From assembly GCA_033875315.1 (NCBI GenBank), contig JANRJG010000030.1, positions 1-59,327 of the forward strand: 59,327 nt of DNA, in the 5' to 3' direction. The notes under the pieces were generated by a model, which was given only the letters and a program-made list of their open reading frames with translations, had not been told where the DNA came from and did not search any database. Numbering within the stretch: the first letter of the stretch is position 1; every line of letters starts with the position of its first letter. The DNA comes from Candidatus Methylacidiphilales bacterium. Its GTDB lineage: Bacteria > Verrucomicrobiota > Verrucomicrobiia > Methylacidiphilales > CAZTYG01. Of the stretch, positions 42,645 through 56,090 are shown piece by piece. The translations under genes and the position numbers were made by a program.

Positions 42645-42772
42645 CCTCCCGAAGGGTCACACGCCGTGTGACCGGGATGAGGAAACAACCCAAGAAGTCT
42701 TCTCAGGATCTCGTCCGGGGAATCCGTGCTCAAAAGTTGCTTCCGGTCGCAGGGCCTGCGACCCTCCGGAAG
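42645..42772. repeat. REPIN-like doublet 1 (REP arms about 90 bp apart)
   Basis: The left REP core is GGTCACACGCCGTGTGACC (42655-42673). The right REP core is GGTCGCAGGGCCTGCGACC (42745-42763). With flanks, the right copy is an inverted version of the left one: both read GGAGGGTCRCA...TGYGACCGG in one orientation or the other. Two inverted REPs at this distance form a REPIN. The right REP lies inside the 5' end of the RAYT reading frame. Confidence 0.75.
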
Positions 42773-43253
42773 TTGGAAGAAAAAAGCCGAGAAATCCAGG
42801 AAGCATCCGATTCATCTTCCTCCCCGTGATTGGAACAACCGGGCACCTTTGATTTTCCTGACTGTGGCCGTGAATGGAAGAAGGCCGTTGCTGAACCGAG
42901 ATACCATTTACCAACTGTTGAAATCCGTCTGGTCCGACGCCAAAGATTGGAAGGTTGGGCGTTATGTTCTATTGCCCGACCATGTGCATTTGTTTTGTGC
43001 CCCTGTATCCATGAATCCCATTCTATCCCTTCCTTCGTGGATCACCTATTGGAAACGAACCAGCACCAGGCGTTGGCCTTATCTTGAAGAAAAGCCAGTT
43101 TGGCAAAGGGAATACTGGGATCGTCAACTCCGTTCCGTGGATCATTACGAATCCAAATGGAATTATGTTTTTCAGAATCCGGTGAGGGCTGGGTTGGTGA
43201 AGGAAGCGGAAGATTGGCCCTATCAAGGAGTGATCGAAAATTTGGAAGCTTGA
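42726..43253 (+). CDS. REP-associated tyrosine transposase (RAYT, Y1_Tnp/HUH)
   Basis: The protein is 175 residues from the only usable in-frame start (GTG 42726). HUH metal motif His86-x-His88 lies in VLLPDHVHLFCAP, and the catalytic Tyr147 lies in WNYVFQNPVRAGLV, with the RAYT-typical WQREYWDRQLRS before it. The reading frame passes through a REP at codons 7-13, so the true start may be later with a non-standard codon, or the N-terminus is really REP-derived. It is surrounded by three REPIN-like doublets, as expected for a RAYT acting in trans on REPs. Confidence 0.88.
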   Translation: MLKSCFRSQGLRPSGSWKKKAEKSRKHPIHLPPRDWNNRAPLIFLTVAVNGRRPLLNRDTIYQLLKSVWSDAKDWKVGRYVLLPDHVHLFCAPVSMNPILSLPSWITYWKRTSTRRWPYLEEKPVWQREYWDRQLRSVDHYESKWNYVFQNPVRAGLVKEAEDWPYQGVIENLEA

Positions 43254-43262
43254 TTTATTTAC

Positions 43263-43383
43263 CGGAGGGGCGCACGCCGTGCGTCCGGATGAGAGGCAAT
43301 CAGTGGAATGCCCTGGGAATGAGGTTTGGGGAATTCGACCTGCCAGATAAGCCCGGTCGCAGGGCCTGCGACCCTCCGGGAAG
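43263..43383. repeat. REPIN-like doublet 2
   Basis: It starts 10 bp past the RAYT stop. The left REP is the variant GGCGCACGCCGTGCGTCC (about 43270-43288) with CCGGAG before and GGATGA after it. The right REP core, GGTCGCAGGGCCTGCGACC (43355-43373), is identical to the right REP of doublet 1. Centre-to-centre spacing is about 85 bp. Confidence 0.75.
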
Positions 43384-43403
43384 GAGGAAAGACAGTAAGA
43401 CCG

Positions 43404-43528
43404 GTCCGGAGGGTCACACGCCTTGTGACCGGGATGAAGGGATGACGTGGGCTAAAAGTTGCCTGTCTCGGACAGGACAATCGATATTGCAAGATGAGCC
43501 CGGTCGCAGGACCTGCGACCCTCCGGGA
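43404..43528. repeat. REPIN-like doublet 3
   Basis: The left REP core is GGTCACACGCCTTGTGACC (43412-43430) with GGA before and GGGATGA after it. The right REP core is GGTCGCAGGACCTGCGACC (43502-43520), differing from doublets 1 and 2 at one central base. Spacing is 90 bp. It ends just before the stop of the convergent ArsR-methyltransferase gene. Confidence 0.75.
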
Positions 43529-43544
43529 AATTCAAGAACATCCG

Positions 43545-44493: not shown

Positions 44494-44527
44494 AAAATAT
44501 CATTCCATCATGATGCGTCAATATTTT
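44494..44527. promoter_or_regulatory. 34-bp interrupted palindrome, candidate SahR-like operator
   Basis: AAAATAT-n5-CATCA|TGATG-n5-ATATTTT has outer and inner arms centred on the same point (44510/44511). It lies 8 bp upstream of the regulator start and 40 bp upstream of metK, so one bound dimer could control both divergent genes. A metK promoter (TTGCAC, 16 bp, TACGCT at 44531-44558) begins just after it and would start transcription at or next to the metK ATG. Confidence 0.65.
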
Positions 44528-44566
44528 GTCTTGCACCGGGCAGGCGCCGGATTACGCTATCAGCCT

Positions 44567-45769
44567 ATGTCAGACCGCTACATCTTCTCCTCCGAGTCCG
44601 TCGGCGAGGGCCATCCGGACAAAGTTTGCGACACCATTTCCGACGCCATCCTGGATGCCTGCCTCCGCGTCGACCCCCGCAGCCGCGTGGCCTGCGAGAC
44701 CTTTGCCAAGAGCAACGTCGTGGTCGTGGGCGGGGAGATCACCATTCCGAAAATCGGGCTCAAGCCCATCGGTGATGTCATCAACATCGACAAGACCATC
44801 CGCGACGCGGTCCGTGGCATCGGCTATGTCCATGACGACGATGTCTTCCATGCCGACCGGATCTTCATCAACAATTACCTGACCACCCAATCCCCGGACA
44901 TCGCCCAGGGTGTGGATGCGGTCAAGGCCAAGGGCAAGAAAACGGCCGAGCAAGGGGCGGGTGACCAGGGAATCATGTTCGGCTACGCCAGTGATGAAAC
45001 GCCCGAACTCATGCCCGCGCCGGTCATGTTTGCCCACCGCCTCGGGCGCGAACTGACCCGCATCCGCAAGCAGGGCAAACTCGCCCCCTGGCTCCGTCCC
45101 GATGCCAAGAGCCAGGTTTCGGTGGAATACATCGACGGCAAGCCCACCCGCATCACCAACGTCGTCATCTCCACCCAACATGCCGCCAGCGTCAGCCACG
45201 CGGAAATCGAACGCTTCTGCATCGAACAGGTGATCAAGAAAGTCCTGCCCAAACGAATGCTCACCGACAAGACCGAATACCTGATCAATCCGACGGGCAA
45301 ATTCGTCGTTGGCGGTCCCCAGGGCGACAGCGGCCTGACCGGGCGCAAGATCATCGTCGACACCTACGGTGGCATGGGCCGCCATGGTGGCGGGGCCTTC
45401 TCGGGCAAGGATCCCTCCAAGGTCGACCGCAGCGCCGCCTACATGGGCCGCTGGGTGGCCAAGAACATTGTCGCCGCCGGTCTGGCCCAGCGCTGCGAGG
45501 TGCAGTTCGCCTACGCCATCGGCCACCCCAAGCCGGTCAGCGTGCACATCGACACCTTCGGCACGGGTGCGGTGGCCGATGCCCGCATCCTGCGCGCGGT
45601 CAACCAAGTCTTCAGTTTCAAACCGGCCGACATCGTCAGCCAGCTCAACCTGCTGCGCCCGATCTACAGCCTCACCACCAACTACGGACATTTCGGGAAG
45701 AAAAACCCCGAAATCACCTGGGAGAAAACCGACAAAGCACAAGCCCTGCGCAAAGCGGCGGGGGTGTGA
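44567..45769 (+). CDS. metK: S-adenosylmethionine synthetase
   Basis: The ATG at 44567 gives [19 protein letters not shown], the family start (400 residues). Hallmarks are [19 protein letters not shown] and [19 protein letters not shown]. The enzyme makes SAM from methionine and ATP with Mg and K. No Shine-Dalgarno sequence precedes the start, and the candidate promoter would make the message nearly leaderless. It lies between a SahR-like regulator and, past a small mobile cassette, ahcY, so the methyl cycle is grouped here. Confidence 0.97.
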
Positions 45770-45770
45770 A

Positions 45771-46195
45771 AGTTTTAGGTTTTAAGTATTAAGTTTTAAG
45801 CTGACTCGCGGCCATGGCTTACAAATCTTTCGAGGATCTGGAGGTTTGGCAGCGTGGATGCAGGATGTCAGTGGATCTTTTTTTAGCATTCGAAAAATGC
45901 CGCTTCCCCAATCTCAAAAGTCAGATTGAACGGGCTGGCCTTTCGGTGGCTTCCAACATTGCCGAAGGTGCTGAACGTGGCGGAACAAAAGAATTTTCGC
46001 AATTTTTGAAAATAGCAAAGGGGTCGAGTGGCGAAGTTCGAACCCAGTTGTATATTGCCCAGAAGTTGAAAGCAATCGACGTCACAGAAGCAAAAAGACT
46101 GGTGAAAGAATCAAAAGAAATCTCAGCCATGTTGGAAGGGTTGCGAAAGTCTGTCCACCGATCAGCTTAAAACTTAATACTTACAAACTTAAAAC
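45771..46195. mobile_element. four-helix-bundle cassette bounded by about 34-bp inverted repeats
   Basis: The left end (45771-45804), AGTTTTAGGTTTTAAGTATT continuing AAGTTTTAAGCTGA, and the right end (46162-46195) are inverted copies with one mismatch and one single-base gap. They enclose only the 118-aa four-helix-bundle gene, whose stop codon lies inside the right repeat. A lone copy of the same repeat occurs at 54797-54831. This suggests a mobile or once-mobile unit, although no transposase is encoded. Both ends are much richer in AT than the surroundings. Confidence 0.6.
45814..46170 (+). CDS. four-helix-bundle protein (23S rRNA intervening-sequence protein family, 118 aa)
   Basis: The frame begins MAYKSFEDLEVWQRGCRMSV, then ERAGLSVASNIAEGAERGG, KEFSQFLKIAKGSSGEVRTQ and a final helix with EISAMLEGL. 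This is the standard S23/IVP family pattern: LEVWQ-x-x, S-x-x-S-N-I-A-E-G and S-x-x-E-x-x-T-Q. The fold is a pentamer-forming four-helix bundle of unknown function, originally found inside 23S rRNA intervening sequences. Here it sits free between metK and ahcY with lower GC than its neighbours, inside a TIR-bounded cassette. Confidence 0.9.
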   Translation: MAYKSFEDLEVWQRGCRMSVDLFLAFEKCRFPNLKSQIERAGLSVASNIAEGAERGGTKEFSQFLKIAKGSSGEVRTQLYIAQKLKAIDVTEAKRLVKESKEISAMLEGLRKSVHRSA

Positions 46196-46212: not shown

Positions 46213-47646
46213 ATGAGCACCACAGCCACCACCACCGCCAAGACCCACGACTACAAAGTCGCCGACATCGGCCTCGCCGACTGGGGACGCAAGGAAATTG
46301 AAATCGCCGAGCAGGAAATGCCCGGCCTGATGTCGATCCGCAAGAAGCACGCCGCCACCAAGCCGCTCAACGGCGTGCGCATCACGGGATCGCTCCACAT
46401 GACCATCCAGACCGCCGTTCTCATCGAGACCCTCAAGGATCTCGGGGCCGACGTCCGCTGGGCCAGTTGCAACATCTTCTCCACCCAGGACCACGCCGCT
46501 GCCGCCATCGCCAAGGCCGGCATCCCTGTCTTTGCCTGGAAGGGTGAGACCCTGGAAGAATACTGGGAGTGCACCTGGCAGGCTTTGACCTGGCCCAATG
46601 GAAAAGGACCGCAGTTGATTGTCGACGACGGCGGCGATGCCACGCTGCTCATCCACAAAGGCGTGGAACTTGAGGACGGGGACAAATGGGTTGATTCCGC
46701 CTCCAAGAGCACGGAAGAACAGGTCATCAAGGACCTGCTCAAGAAGATCAAGGCCGAGAATCCCTTCCACTGGCATGAAGTGGTGAAGGACTGGCGCGGG
46801 GTTTCGGAAGAAACCACCACCGGCGTCCACCGCCTCTACAAGATGATGGAAGAGGGCAAACTCCTCGTCCCCGCCATCAACGTCAACGATTCCTGCACCA
46901 AGTCGAAGTTCGACAACCTCTATGGTTGCCGCCACTCGCTCATCGACGGACTCAACCGCGCGCTCGACGTCATGATCTCCGGCAAAGTGGCCGTGGTCTG
47001 CGGCTACGGCGATGTCGGCAAGGGCTGCGCCCAGTCGCTCAAGGGCCAGGGCGCCCGTGTCATCATCACCGAGATCGACCCGATCTGTGCGCTCCAGGCC
47101 GCCATGGAAGGTTACGAAGTCACCACCATCGAGGACACCCTCGGAAGGGCCGATATCTACGTCACCACCACCGGTAACGCCGACATCATCACCGTAGAGC
47201 ACATGCAGAAGATGAAGGACCAGGCGGTCATCGCCAACATCGGTCACTTCGACAATGAGATCCAGGTCGACAAGCTGAATGCCCTTGCGGGCGCCAAGCG
47301 CGTCAACATCAAGCCCCAGGTGGACAAGTATGTCTTCGGCGACGGCCGGGCCATCTTCCTCCTCGCCGAGGGGCGCCTGGTCAACCTCGGTTGCGCCACC
47401 GGTCACCCGAGCTTTGTCATGTCGGCCTCGTTCTCCAACCAGACCCTGGCCCAGATCGACCTCTGGCACAACAAGGACACCTACAAGCCCGGCGTCTACC
47501 GCCTCTCGAAAAAACTCGACGAGGAAGTGGCGCGCCTGCACTTGGAGAAGATCGGGGCCAAGCTGACCCGCCTGACCAAGGCCCAGGCCGACTACATCGG
47601 TGTGCCCGTGGACGGCCCTTACAAGCCCGAGCACTACCGTTACTGA
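46213..47646 (+). CDS. ahcY: adenosylhomocysteinase
   Basis: The protein is 477 residues from [20 protein letters not shown]. It shows [17 protein letters not shown] (substrate loop) and [20 protein letters not shown] (NAD-binding Rossmann), and ends KPEHYRY, the C-terminal lid that reaches the neighbouring subunit. It contains the extra segment of about 40 residues ([13 protein letters not shown] to EETTTG) found in the longer class of the family. It splits S-adenosylhomocysteine into adenosine and homocysteine. It probably once shared a transcript with metK, before the four-helix-bundle cassette separated them. Confidence 0.97.
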
Positions 47647-52705: not shown

Positions 52706-53806
52706 ATGTCCACTCTGGAAGCCACCCGAAAAGCCCCCCAACCCTCTTCGTTTGCCGACGCTCCGGTCAACAAGTCGCTCAAGCCGGAAGCCAAGGTCGG
52801 CCTGCTCCGCACCATGGTCCGCATCCGACGCTTTGAGGAACGTTCGCTCCAAGCCTATCAGGGCGGCAACATCGGTGGATTCCTCCATCTCTACAACGGC
52901 CAGGAAGCCGTTGCCGTCGGTTCGATTTCCCTCTGTGGACCCCACGACCACGTCATCACCGCCTACCGCGACCACGGACACGCGCTCGCTGTCGGCATGG
53001 GCATGAATGAATGCATGGCCGAACTCTTCGGCAAGGCCACCGGTTGTTCCAAAGGCAAGGGCGGGTCCATGCATTTCTTCGCCCCCGACAAGAATTACTG
53101 GGGAGGCCATGGCATTGTCGGCGGTCAGACCCCGCTCGGCCTCGGATTGGCTTACGCGGTCAAATACAAGGGCCTGACCGGTTCCTGCCTTTGCTACATG
53201 GGCGACGGTGCGGTCAACCAGGGTGCTTTCCACGAATCCCTCAACCTCGCCTCCCTCTGGGACATCCCCGTCATCTTCGTCATTGAGAACAACGGTTATT
53301 CCATGGGCACCAGCCTGGCCCGTTCCTCGGCCTTCCGCGAGTGCCTGGCCAAGCGCGCCGAGGGTTACGACATGGACTGGCAGCAGTGCATGGGCCACGA
53401 CCTCTACGAGGTACGCGCCGCCGTCCAAATCGCCCTCGACCGTGCCCACCAGAAATCCCGGCCGACCCTGATCGAGATCGACACCTACCGCTACGAAGGC
53501 CATTCCGTCGCCGACGCCAACAAAAAGAAATACCGCAGCCCGGAAGAGATCGAAAACTACAAAACCACCAAGGACCCGATCCAGCTCTTCAAGAACCAGC
53601 TCATCGCCGAGGGTCATCTGGACGAACAGCGATACGAGACCATCGACCGCGAGGCCAAGGACGAAGCCAAGGCCGCGGCCGACTTCGCCGAACAGAGCCC
53701 CTATCCTTCCCGTGAATCCATCCGCGAGGACATTTACTGGGAAACCGACCAGCCCGACGGCCGTACCTCCCAGGGCCGCATTTTCTTCAACGACGAAATC
53801 GAATAA
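52706..53806 (+). CDS. pdhA: pyruvate dehydrogenase E1 component, alpha subunit
   Basis: The ATG at 52706 gives MSTLEATRKAPQ (366 residues). The thiamine-diphosphate motif GDGAVNQGAFHESLNLASLW leads to VIENNGYSM (about 166-200). GGHGIVGGQTPLGLGLAYAV and RYEGHSVADANKKKYR are E1-alpha hallmarks. With the beta subunit it decarboxylates pyruvate and loads the acetyl group onto the E2 lipoyl arm. It heads a compact E1alpha-E1beta-E2-E3 operon. Confidence 0.95.
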   Translation: MSTLEATRKAPQPSSFADAPVNKSLKPEAKVGLLRTMVRIRRFEERSLQAYQGGNIGGFLHLYNGQEAVAVGSISLCGPHDHVITAYRDHGHALAVGMGMNECMAELFGKATGCSKGKGGSMHFFAPDKNYWGGHGIVGGQTPLGLGLAYAVKYKGLTGSCLCYMGDGAVNQGAFHESLNLASLWDIPVIFVIENNGYSMGTSLARSSAFRECLAKRAEGYDMDWQQCMGHDLYEVRAAVQIALDRAHQKSRPTLIEIDTYRYEGHSVADANKKKYRSPEEIENYKTTKDPIQLFKNQLIAEGHLDEQRYETIDREAKDEAKAAADFAEQSPYPSRESIREDIYWETDQPDGRTSQGRIFFNDEIE

Positions 53807-53813
53807 CTTCCCT

Positions 53814-54788
53814 ATGCGCAAAATCACCTACCGCGAGGCCCTGCGCGAGGGCCTTTCCGAAGAAATCGAACGCGATGAGAACGTGGTCATCATCGGCGAG
53901 GAAGTGGCCCAGTACAATGGCGCCTACAAAGTCACCGAGGGCATGTGGGCCAAGTACGGAGACAAACGCATCGTTGACGCGCCGATCAGCGAGGCCGGAT
54001 TCATCGGCATGGGCGTGGGCGCCTCCATGCTCGGCATCCGCCCGGTTATGGAACTCATGTTCTTCAGCTTCGCCTACGTGGCCTGGGACCAGATGATCAA
54101 CAACGCCTCCGCCGTGCGCTATATGTCCGGAGGAAAAATCAACTGCCCCATCGTCGTCCGCGGCCCGGCCAACGGCGGTACCAACGTCGGTGCCACCCAC
54201 TCCCACACCCCGGAAAACGCCATCGCCAATGTCCCCGGCCTCAAGGTCGTCTGTCCCGCCACCGCCTACGATGCCAAGGGCCTGATCAAATCCGCCATCC
54301 GCGACAACGACCCGGTCTATTTCATGGAGAACACCCTTCTCTATGGCGAGTCCTGGGAGGTGCCCGAGGAAGAATACCTCGTCCCCATCGGCAAGGCCGA
54401 CGTCAAGCGCGAGGGAACAGACCTGACCATCGTGGCCCATGGCCGTTGCGTCATCATGGCCCTCAAGGCCGCCGAACTCCTCCAGGCCGAACACGATCTC
54501 AGTGTCGAAGTGGTCGACCTCCGCTCCATCCGCCCGCTCGACGAGGACACCATCTGCGAATCCGTGCGCAAGACCCACCGTGTCCTGCTGGTGGAAGAAA
54601 ACAAACCCTTCTGCGGCGTCGACGCCCAGATCAGCCACCTCATCCAGGAAAAATGCTTCGACGACCTTGATGCGCCGATCAAGCGCCTTTCCGCCATCGA
54701 TGCCCCGGCAATCTACTCCAAACCCCTTGAGGATTTCCAGATCCCCAACGTTGACCGCATTGTCAAAGCGGCCCTCAGCGTGGGTTAG
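53814..54788 (+). CDS. pdhB: pyruvate dehydrogenase E1 component, beta subunit
   Basis: The ATG at 53814 lies 7 bp after the pdhA stop and gives MRKITYREALREGLSEEIER (324 residues). FIGMGVGASMLGIRPVMELM, GGTNVGATHSHTPENAI and LRSIRPLDEDTI mark an E1-beta transketolase-like domain. The subunit forms the alpha2beta2 E1 with PdhA. Its 3' end is followed by a 35-bp AT-rich repeat before the E2 gene. Confidence 0.95.
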   Translation: MRKITYREALREGLSEEIERDENVVIIGEEVAQYNGAYKVTEGMWAKYGDKRIVDAPISEAGFIGMGVGASMLGIRPVMELMFFSFAYVAWDQMINNASAVRYMSGGKINCPIVVRGPANGGTNVGATHSHTPENAIANVPGLKVVCPATAYDAKGLIKSAIRDNDPVYFMENTLLYGESWEVPEEEYLVPIGKADVKREGTDLTIVAHGRCVIMALKAAELLQAEHDLSVEVVDLRSIRPLDEDTICESVRKTHRVLLVEENKPFCGVDAQISHLIQEKCFDDLDAPIKRLSAIDAPAIYSKPLEDFQIPNVDRIVKAALSVG

Positions 54789-54796
54789 ATCTTGTT

Positions 54797-54831
54797 CTGC
54801 TTAAAACTTAATACCTAAAACTTAAAACTTT
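54797..54831. repeat. solo copy of the four-helix-bundle cassette terminal repeat
   Basis: TCTGCTTAAAACTTAATACC continuing TAAAACTTAAAACTT matches the right terminal repeat of the cassette (46162-46195) at nearly every base, in the same orientation. No gene accompanies it. It fills the pdhB-pdhC gap and leaves only 5 bp before the pdhC ATG. Confidence 0.75.
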
Positions 54832-54836
54832 TCCCC

Positions 54837-56090
54837 ATGCCCACCGCCATCACCATGCCCAAGCTCAGCGACACCATGACCGAGGGCACGGTCGTCAAAT
54901 GGCTCAAGCAAGAGGGGGACACGGTCAACTCCGGCGATGTCATTGCCGAGATTGAAACCGACAAGGCCACCATGGATTTGGAGGCCTTTGATTCCGGGGT
55001 GTTGCTGAAGATCCTGGCCCCGGCCGGCACCGCGGCCGCCTGCAAGGCTCCCATTGCCTTTATTGGTGAAAAAGGGGAAAAAATTGATGAAGCGGCATTT
55101 GCCGCCGCTTCCGTCAAGGAGGCGGCTCCGGCGTCTGCCTCGGCTCCGGCCGTTGAACCTGTTTCCGCGCCCGCACTGCCTCTGCCGACCCCCCAGGCCG
55201 TGGGTGGACTGGTGGGACGGGCCAAAGCCTCTCCCCTGGCCCGCAAGATCGCGGCCGAAAACGGGGTCGATCTTTCCCGGGTGACGGGCACCGGGCCCGG
55301 CGGGCGCATCGTCAAAAAGGACGTGCTGGCCCTCGGTTCAACAGGAGGCTCCGGCGGCTCCGGATGGCTTCACGCCACCGGTTACATCGGCAAGGGCGAC
55401 GAGCGTGTGCCCCTGACCAACATGCGCAAGACCATCGCCAAGCGCCTCCAGCAGAGCAAACAGACCATTCCCCATTTTTACCAGGAGATGGAAATCGACA
55501 TGGGCCCCTGCATGGCGCTTCGGGCCGTTCTCAATGCCCGTTTGGAAAAAACCCAGCCTCCGGTCAAACTCAGTTTCAACGACTTCGTCCTAAAAGCCTG
55601 TGCCGTGGCCATGCGCAAGGCACCCGTGGTCAATGCCTTCTGGGAAGAGGATGCCGTGCGCATGAACGGTTCGGTCCACCTCGCTTTCGGTGTTGCCATC
55701 CCCGGTGGCCTCATCACGCCCGTGATCCCCGACGCACAGGACAAGAACCTCAAGCAGATCAGCCTTGAAGCCAAGGAATTGGCCGCCCGTGCCAAGGAGG
55801 GCAAACTCAAGCCCGAGGAATACACCACCGGCACTTTCACCGTCTCCAATCTGGGCATGTTCGGCGTTGACCGCTTCAGCGCCATCGTCAACCCACCCCA
55901 GGCTGCCATCCTGGCCGTCGGCAACATCGTGGCCAAACCCGTGGTCGATGCCAATGGCCAGATCGTGGTCGGCCAGCGCATGAGCCTGACCCTATCCGCC
56001 GACCACCGCGTGGTCGACGGCGCCGACGCCGCCATCTTCCTGAAGGAAGTCAAAGACCTCCTCGAAGCCCCGGCCCTGTTGGTGGCTTGA
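54837..56090 (+). CDS. pdhC: pyruvate dehydrogenase E2 component (dihydrolipoamide acetyltransferase)
   Basis: The protein is 417 residues. One lipoyl domain carries Lys43 in EIETDKATMDLEAF. An Ala/Pro linker follows, then a peripheral-subunit-binding domain (about 130-162, ASPLARKIAAENGVDLSRVT) and a catalytic domain with the H-x-x-x-D-G motif in SADHRVVDGADA near residue 390. Its place between E1beta and E3 supports a pyruvate rather than oxoglutarate E2. The ribosome-binding region is made of the solo AT-rich repeat. Confidence 0.93.
   Translation: MPTAITMPKLSDTMTEGTVVKWLKQEGDTVNSGDVIAEIETDKATMDLEAFDSGVLLKILAPAGTAAACKAPIAFIGEKGEKIDEAAFAAASVKEAAPASASAPAVEPVSAPALPLPTPQAVGGLVGRAKASPLARKIAAENGVDLSRVTGTGPGGRIVKKDVLALGSTGGSGGSGWLHATGYIGKGDERVPLTNMRKTIAKRLQQSKQTIPHFYQEMEIDMGPCMALRAVLNARLEKTQPPVKLSFNDFVLKACAVAMRKAPVVNAFWEEDAVRMNGSVHLAFGVAIPGGLITPVIPDAQDKNLKQISLEAKELAARAKEGKLKPEEYTTGTFTVSNLGMFGVDRFSAIVNPPQAAILAVGNIVAKPVVDANGQIVVGQRMSLTLSADHRVVDGADAAIFLKEVKDLLEAPALLVA

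Follow-up and report, generated by a model that had tools for sequence, protein, structure and literature searches.

A PF05635 gene between inverted heptamer arrays in the metK-ahcY gap: a candidate mobile relative of 23S rRNA intervening sequences

Crystal structures of PF05635 proteins, the family encoded in the intervening sequences (IVSs) of some 23S rRNA genes, have been available since 2006, and the STRR sequences of cyanobacteria are dispersed heptamer repeats. The IVS of Coxiella is 428 nt long; it contains an S23p ORF preceded by GACAGAT heptamers, has a terminal stem of 28 bp and is cut out by RNase III (PMC4990558). As cited in that article, IVSs have been proposed to be transposition remnants (Burgin 1990) or mobile elements with an ORF that functions in mobility (Ralph and McClelland 1993), and the family member XCC0516 is described, after Lin 2006, as a homopentameric toroid, a five-membered ring (PMC4990558). 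Dispersed heptamers have been reported separately, as GGGAATC in Xanthomonas and GGGGAYT in Nostoc (PMC4692102) and as TAACTGA in Beggiatoaceae (PMC4679880). The Xanthomonas heptamers mostly occur in four units, often as inverted pairs and near the end of the upstream ORF, and generally no association of heptamers with mobile elements was found (PMC4692102). A search of the open-access literature, with preprints and most subscription journals outside its scope, found no paper joining IVP genes outside rRNA with heptamer arrays.

The window analyzed here is a 59,327-bp stretch of DNA from Candidatus Methylacidiphilales bacterium (contig JANRJG010000030.1). An element of ~430 bp (45771-46195; 43% GC, against 61% GC for the window) begins 2 nt beyond the TGA stop codon of metK (45767-45769) and precedes ahcY (Table 1). 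An earlier note, made from the sequence alone, had described a gene enclosed by inverted repeats, the right one of which takes in the stop codon, and had reported a single further copy of the repeat in the pdh operon; all three observations were reproduced. Inverted repeats of 32 nt (45773-45804 and 46162-46193; 91% complementary, 357 nt apart) surround the PF05635 gene, the TAA codon at 46168-46170 falls within the right arm, and the pdh copy lies where the note had placed it. Neither arm was matched in 20 shuffled windows with up to 6 mismatches allowed. The same note had taken the ends for fixed terminal inverted repeats (TIRs) of about 34 bp, a description that has to be replaced: the unit series (C)TTAAAAC TTAATAC TTAAAAC TTAAAAC is a four-unit degenerate heptamer array, and the arms differ between family members. 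Since the ends are heptamer arrays and not a fixed 34-bp TIR, other members mostly differ in end sequence and share the architecture. The RNA of the complete insert folds well (z -4.8). Searches of phage records and of PADLOC gave no match.

Table 1. Positions of the element, its neighbors and related features in the window
Feature	Position	Strand	Description or basis
metK (S-adenosylmethionine synthetase), upstream host gene	44510..45769	+	Pfam S-AdoMet_synt N/M/C
Left arm, degenerate heptamer array	45771..45804	.	G-type on + strand (GTTTTAG GTTTTAA GTATTAA GTTTTAA G); sequence, repeat search, shuffles
IVP (four-helix-bundle) gene	45814..46170	+	118 aa; PF05635 / TIGR02436; AF2 model, nearest fold 2GSC
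Right arm, inverted array	46162..46195	.	C-type on + strand (CTTAAAACTTAATACTTACAAACTTAAAAC), holds the IVP stop codon; sequence, repeat search, shuffles
ahcY (adenosylhomocysteinase), downstream host gene	46213..47646	+	Pfam AdoHcyase
Solo C-type array in pdh operon	54796..54831	.	92% match; preceding ORF 12 nt away, following ORF 8 nt away
RAYT gene	42726-43253		NF047646, 90 bits

In profile searches, the window IVP scored 102.5 bits against PF05635 (cut-off 33.8) and 99.8 against TIGR02436 (cut-off 24). The AF2 model (pLDDT 95.6) was closest in fold comparison to XCC0516 (2GSC; TM 0.89), with 2RLD also matched. Avd (4DWL) aligned with a TM of about 0.79, a match that is weak by E-value and at 12-13% identity, and Avd inside the DGR ribonucleoprotein (8UB7/8UBB) was a further, weaker fold match. 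On the basis of this model the window IVP is assigned the four-helix-bundle fold of XCC0516; the pentamer is a property of XCC0516. We know of no catalytic domain in IVP. Among close pairs dN/dS is 0.08-0.30, which indicates that the IVP product matters and that the gene is under purifying selection. The window's genome contains seven PF05635 genes, and the family is present in 221 of 289 sampled Verrucomicrobiota genomes, with up to 15 matches per genome; the same survey found no IVP genes in several genomes, small or closed, from the order to which the window belongs.

All seven IVP genes of the window's genome adjoin inverted short-repeat arms, and the arm sequence is different each time, with units of GTGATGRG (8 nt), AAGTAGG-like, TTAAAAC (7), GTGGACA (7), GTCCTTG (7), GAGNNC (6) and a short AT-rich type. 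The signal is strong in four of the seven; the arms are short at L010 and L015, and L012 is mainly periodic rather than paired. Most IVP loci of order relatives likewise show short-repeat arms. A cross-phylum sample comprised 80 named IVP loci, of which 77 were evaluable, and 78 control ORFs; an inverted-repeat score of at least 14 was reached at 77% of the 77 IVP loci and at 0% of the controls. Periodic arrays (array score of at least 10) were found in 72.5% of the arms over 119 loci, compared with 1.7% of shuffles. The arms were better described as inverted at 95 loci and as direct at 6 (n=101). Period 7 dominates, the arrays are most often four units long, and the median element length is 462 bp. 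The unit consensus includes an AG step in 115 of 137 period-7 arms, and C makes up only 11% of bases in these arms read towards the gene. In a set of 30 loci picked only by Pfam score, 23 outscored all shuffles and a period-7 array was present in 41 of 60 arms, and the cyanobacterial and Riemerella plasmid loci had the same architecture in 10 of 10 cases. Inverted short-repeat arrays around IVP genes are thus a general architecture across bacterial phyla. The expectation that other family genes would be flanked by the repeat held for the inverted-array architecture, which is common, and failed for the exact sequence, which other members do not share; a single 34-bp TIR common to all members was rejected, since the arms differ between loci. 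The suggestion that the gene is mere cargo is also unlikely, because the family goes with arrays in different phyla and purifying selection acts on it (dN/dS about 0.08-0.30).

The arms of one locus are not exact unit-by-unit inverted copies of each other, as their excess over permuted units is only modest (Wilcoxon p = 4e-4; median per-locus p 0.41). Only among proteins more than about 50% identical do the arms become more alike as identity increases, so descent alone may explain the covariation. Seven loci of one genus (L051, L052, L054, L073, L074, L060 and L061) have 8-nt units (GGGGTTAA, AAGGTGAG), and step length therefore varies by lineage. Longer GC-rich inverted repeats with no clear heptamer are found at L151, L154, L290 and L292; these may be decayed or different ends.

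The elements occupy the gaps between stop and start codons in operons. The array begins a median of 6 nt from the upstream stop codon (within 12 nt at 59%) at the 69 loci whose upstream gene runs in the same direction, and it ends a median of 12 nt before the next start codon. This preference can reflect site choice, or selection for the place that spares both proteins. In one case a plasmid element lies between two ribonucleotide-reductase genes. On cyanobacterial plasmids, IVP elements also occur within CRISPR-Cas operons, between cmr2/cas10 and cmr3 (L081, 1501-1857) and between cas6 and cas4 (L082, 1501-1869).

The earlier note had proposed an insertion between metK and ahcY and had raised the question of empty sites; the insertion was supported, and empty sites exist. 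Among 26 genomes of the order, including the window's own, metK and ahcY are adjacent without the element in 23, and copies of the end sequence are scattered elsewhere in the window's genome. Empty counterparts also exist outside this locus: two Nostoc plasmids have an operon in common and carry reciprocal insertions in it, the IVP element of either plasmid facing an empty site in the other, and the element of genome G055 is missing from the counterpart site in G057. Both Nostoc junctions are clean and lie at a stop or start codon. There is no clear target-site duplication at one and a possible 3-bp duplication (ATG) at the other, so that no consistent duplication was seen in these two insertions. 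Within the order, the metK-ahcY gap of G033 is occupied by an IVP that has another heptamer, GTTTTCA, and that of G001 contains a scar-like sequence, TAAGTTTCAAGACTTAAAACT, directly after the metK stop codon (L170, 1470-1502), composed of one left-arm piece and one right-arm piece.

The metK-ahcY position is held by 22 sampled IVP loci, mostly from Verrucomicrobiota, and these fall in at least two lineages of the IVP tree. The grouping expected from metK was rejected on the IVP tree (AU p = 2e-53). On the metK tree, a clade of L011 and L088 remained acceptable (p = 0.10); that pair alone is therefore no proof of transfer, and the IVP-side test carries the argument. Fixed chromosomal architecture, which the earlier note had named as the result that would speak against mobility, is thus a partial description: many IVP loci do lie at this position, but the IVP tree rejects simple vertical descent. 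We read metK-ahcY as a favored site that has been repeatedly occupied or replaced, with some inheritance. Part of the recurrence could be an old vertical insertion followed by many losses.

The array of the window element is itself dispersed. The TTAAAAC pattern has about 20 matches per orientation in the window's genome (overlapping registers counted), compared with 0-1 for the reversed pattern, and these correspond to about 18 separate sites besides the element. One of them is the pdh copy, which lies between a transketolase-type, pdhB-like ORF (53712-54788) and a dihydrolipoyl-acyltransferase ORF (54837-56090). Five of the sites are inverted pairs (hairpins) 20-45 bp apart and the remainder are single. 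The dispersed arrays are mostly intergenic; of those near genes, the G-type tends to lie after a stop codon and the C-type ahead of a start codon. Across the roughly 18 sites, only IVP was seen enclosed by matching inverted arrays. Single arrays at L002, L008 and L037 have longer flanks in common (cgaccggggaaaggattccccggctacaggagatttctgc ahead of the array and cgcctctgcgtctctgcgcgag behind it), which indicates that some single copies belong to a larger dispersed repeat. The arms of two other IVPs in the window's genome were tested and are not dispersed, leaving TTAAAAC as the only dispersed type known there and ruling out that every IVP has dispersed cognate arrays. In a set of 60 genomes, TTAAAAC-type arrays are frequent in G000, G001, G015 and G029 and less so in G039. 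In four of these five (G000, G015, G029 and G039) there are IVPs whose arms are of the TTAAAAC or TGAAAAC type. G001 has many TTAAAAC-like arrays, but the search turned up no IVP with arms to match, and this exception excludes the rule that array abundance always implies a cognate IVP. The scar in the metK-ahcY gap of G001 suggests that this genome once had a matching IVP, since lost.

Several other explanations were weighed against mobility of an IVP-encoding element. IVP might be useful to the host and passed down vertically as part of the metK-ahcY (SAM cycle) operon of Verrucomicrobiota, with arrays acting as a structure for transcript processing or regulation that drifts in sequence. The 22 loci at this position fit such a history, as do the weak correlation between metK and IVP identity (rho 0.21; 18/1000 permutations) and the RNA folding of the insert. 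The predominance of genomes that keep metK and ahcY adjacent without IVP, the AU rejection of a metK-based clade and the presence of the same architecture in unrelated operons and on plasmids make it rather unlikely. Pairing within the arms also argues against it, with G.U pairs numbering 119 and A.C pairs 145 on the coding strand of 106 arm pairs (p = 0.12). With no G.U excess, the inverted symmetry of the arms is not visibly kept by RNA pairing, and a conserved RNA stem was rejected as their explanation although the single insert folds well. The same counts weigh against RNA-mediated mobility, in which IVP, resembling Avd in role as in fold, would work with a trans-acting reverse transcriptase, and the element would pass through an RNA intermediate. 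The fold match to Avd and the place of Avd in the DGR ribonucleoprotein point in that direction, as does the excision of known IVS elements as RNA by RNase III (PMC4990558); given the low identity and weak E-values of the Avd matches, we consider this route quite unlikely.

A transposase sharing the ends, which the earlier note had proposed to look for, was not found at the roughly 18 dispersed sites, and the RAYT (REP-associated tyrosine transposase) encoded 2.5 kb from the element has different REPs. The arrays could nonetheless be imagined as REP-type sequences moved by RAYT with IVP as a passenger, given this proximity, the further RAYT copies in the genome and the resemblance of the inverted array pairs to REPINs. 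However, the local RAYT is ringed by its own GC-rich palindromes, GGTCGCAGGGCCTGCGACC and GGTCACACGCCGTGTGACC, and not by heptamer arrays, and no RAYT was detected in G015 and G039, incomplete assemblies that both have arrays and matching IVPs. On these two grounds RAYT is a poor candidate, it is disfavored as the mobilizer, and the REP-like account is very improbable. The region 42649-43529, with RAYT and the two palindrome families, looks like an ordinary RAYT-REP unit. Chance or slippage, by which heptamer tracts would expand anywhere and happen to adjoin IVP genes, draws on the over-representation of heptameric repeats in bacteria (PMC4692102). It has next to no probability when none of the 78 control ORFs reaches the inverted-repeat score seen at most IVP loci and the orientation is inverted in 95 of 101.

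The architecture, its generality, the insertion sites, the empty sites, the dispersed copies, the purifying selection and the fold were computed directly. The best reading of these data is that the element is a mobile chromosomal relative of 23S rRNA IVSs and that IVP is its own end-recognizing protein. Stated in full, the element is, with fair probability, a minimal mobile unit of ~430 bp, made up of an inverted heptamer array, one IVP gene and an inverted array and inserted in the metK-ahcY stop-start gap, in which IVP would bind the arrays and mobility would depend on IVP. A small, probably pentameric IVP ring would bind the tandem units of its cognate array, possibly with one unit per ring subunit; the usual four units neither prove nor exclude that correspondence. 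Bound IVP may then flag both inverted ends, so that an activity of the host, or one acting in trans, copies or inserts the element; the same activity would also have spread the hairpin pairs and solo arrays, as derivatives that are internally deleted or one-ended. What this implies is a mobile element with no recognizable transposase. Those 23S rRNA IVSs that encode S23p/IVP appear to be such elements in one particular location, and the data suggest a widespread, little-described kind of tiny mobile element.

A broader proposal is advanced tentatively, as a possibility. IVP would be the only protein of a transposase-less mobile class found across phyla, its pentameric ring reading, at each of the two inverted ends, tandem heptamers in which the AG step is fixed. 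The heptamer repeats of bacteria (STRR, GGGAATC of Xanthomonas and others) would be non-autonomous derivatives, and the 23S IVS would be the same element in rRNA. Calling these elements a separate mobile class would need demonstrated movement. The placement of PF05635 genes between inverted arrays offers one explanation for three puzzles, namely 23S rRNA IVSs, the function of IVP and the over-represented heptamers of bacteria, and it makes the cognate array the predicted ligand for PF05635.

Compared with known systems, the element resembles MITEs in its shortness, inverted ends, dispersal and internally deleted forms and differs from them in that no parent transposase with these ends was found at the roughly 18 dispersed sites and the end arrays vary from element to element. 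REP sequences and REPINs associated with RAYT are likewise short, dispersed and intergenic, single or in inverted pairs, whereas the units here are tandem heptamers and not GC-rich palindromes, and the REPs of the local RAYT are different. The dispersed heptamer repeats are closer, being degenerate, commonly of four units, arranged in inverted pairs, intergenic and, in Xanthomonas, close to the upstream ORF end, but the articles describing them draw no connection with IVP genes (PMC4692102, PMC4679880). The encoded protein shares its four-helix-bundle fold with XCC0516 (2GSC) and the DGR protein Avd (4DWL), at the TM values given above; unlike Avd, which works with an adjacent reverse transcriptase, the window element encodes none and is adjoined only by metK and ahcY, with no neighboring reverse transcriptase and template/variable repeats as in a DGR. 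The 23S rRNA IVSs of Coxiella and Leptospira share with it the protein family, a length of about 430 nt and the arrangement of terminal inverted repeats and an IVP ORF. The window element differs from these IVSs in lying at the junction of a protein-gene operon, outside the 23S rRNA gene, and in its arms, which consist of inverted heptamer arrays and have dispersed counterparts, both solo and hairpin.
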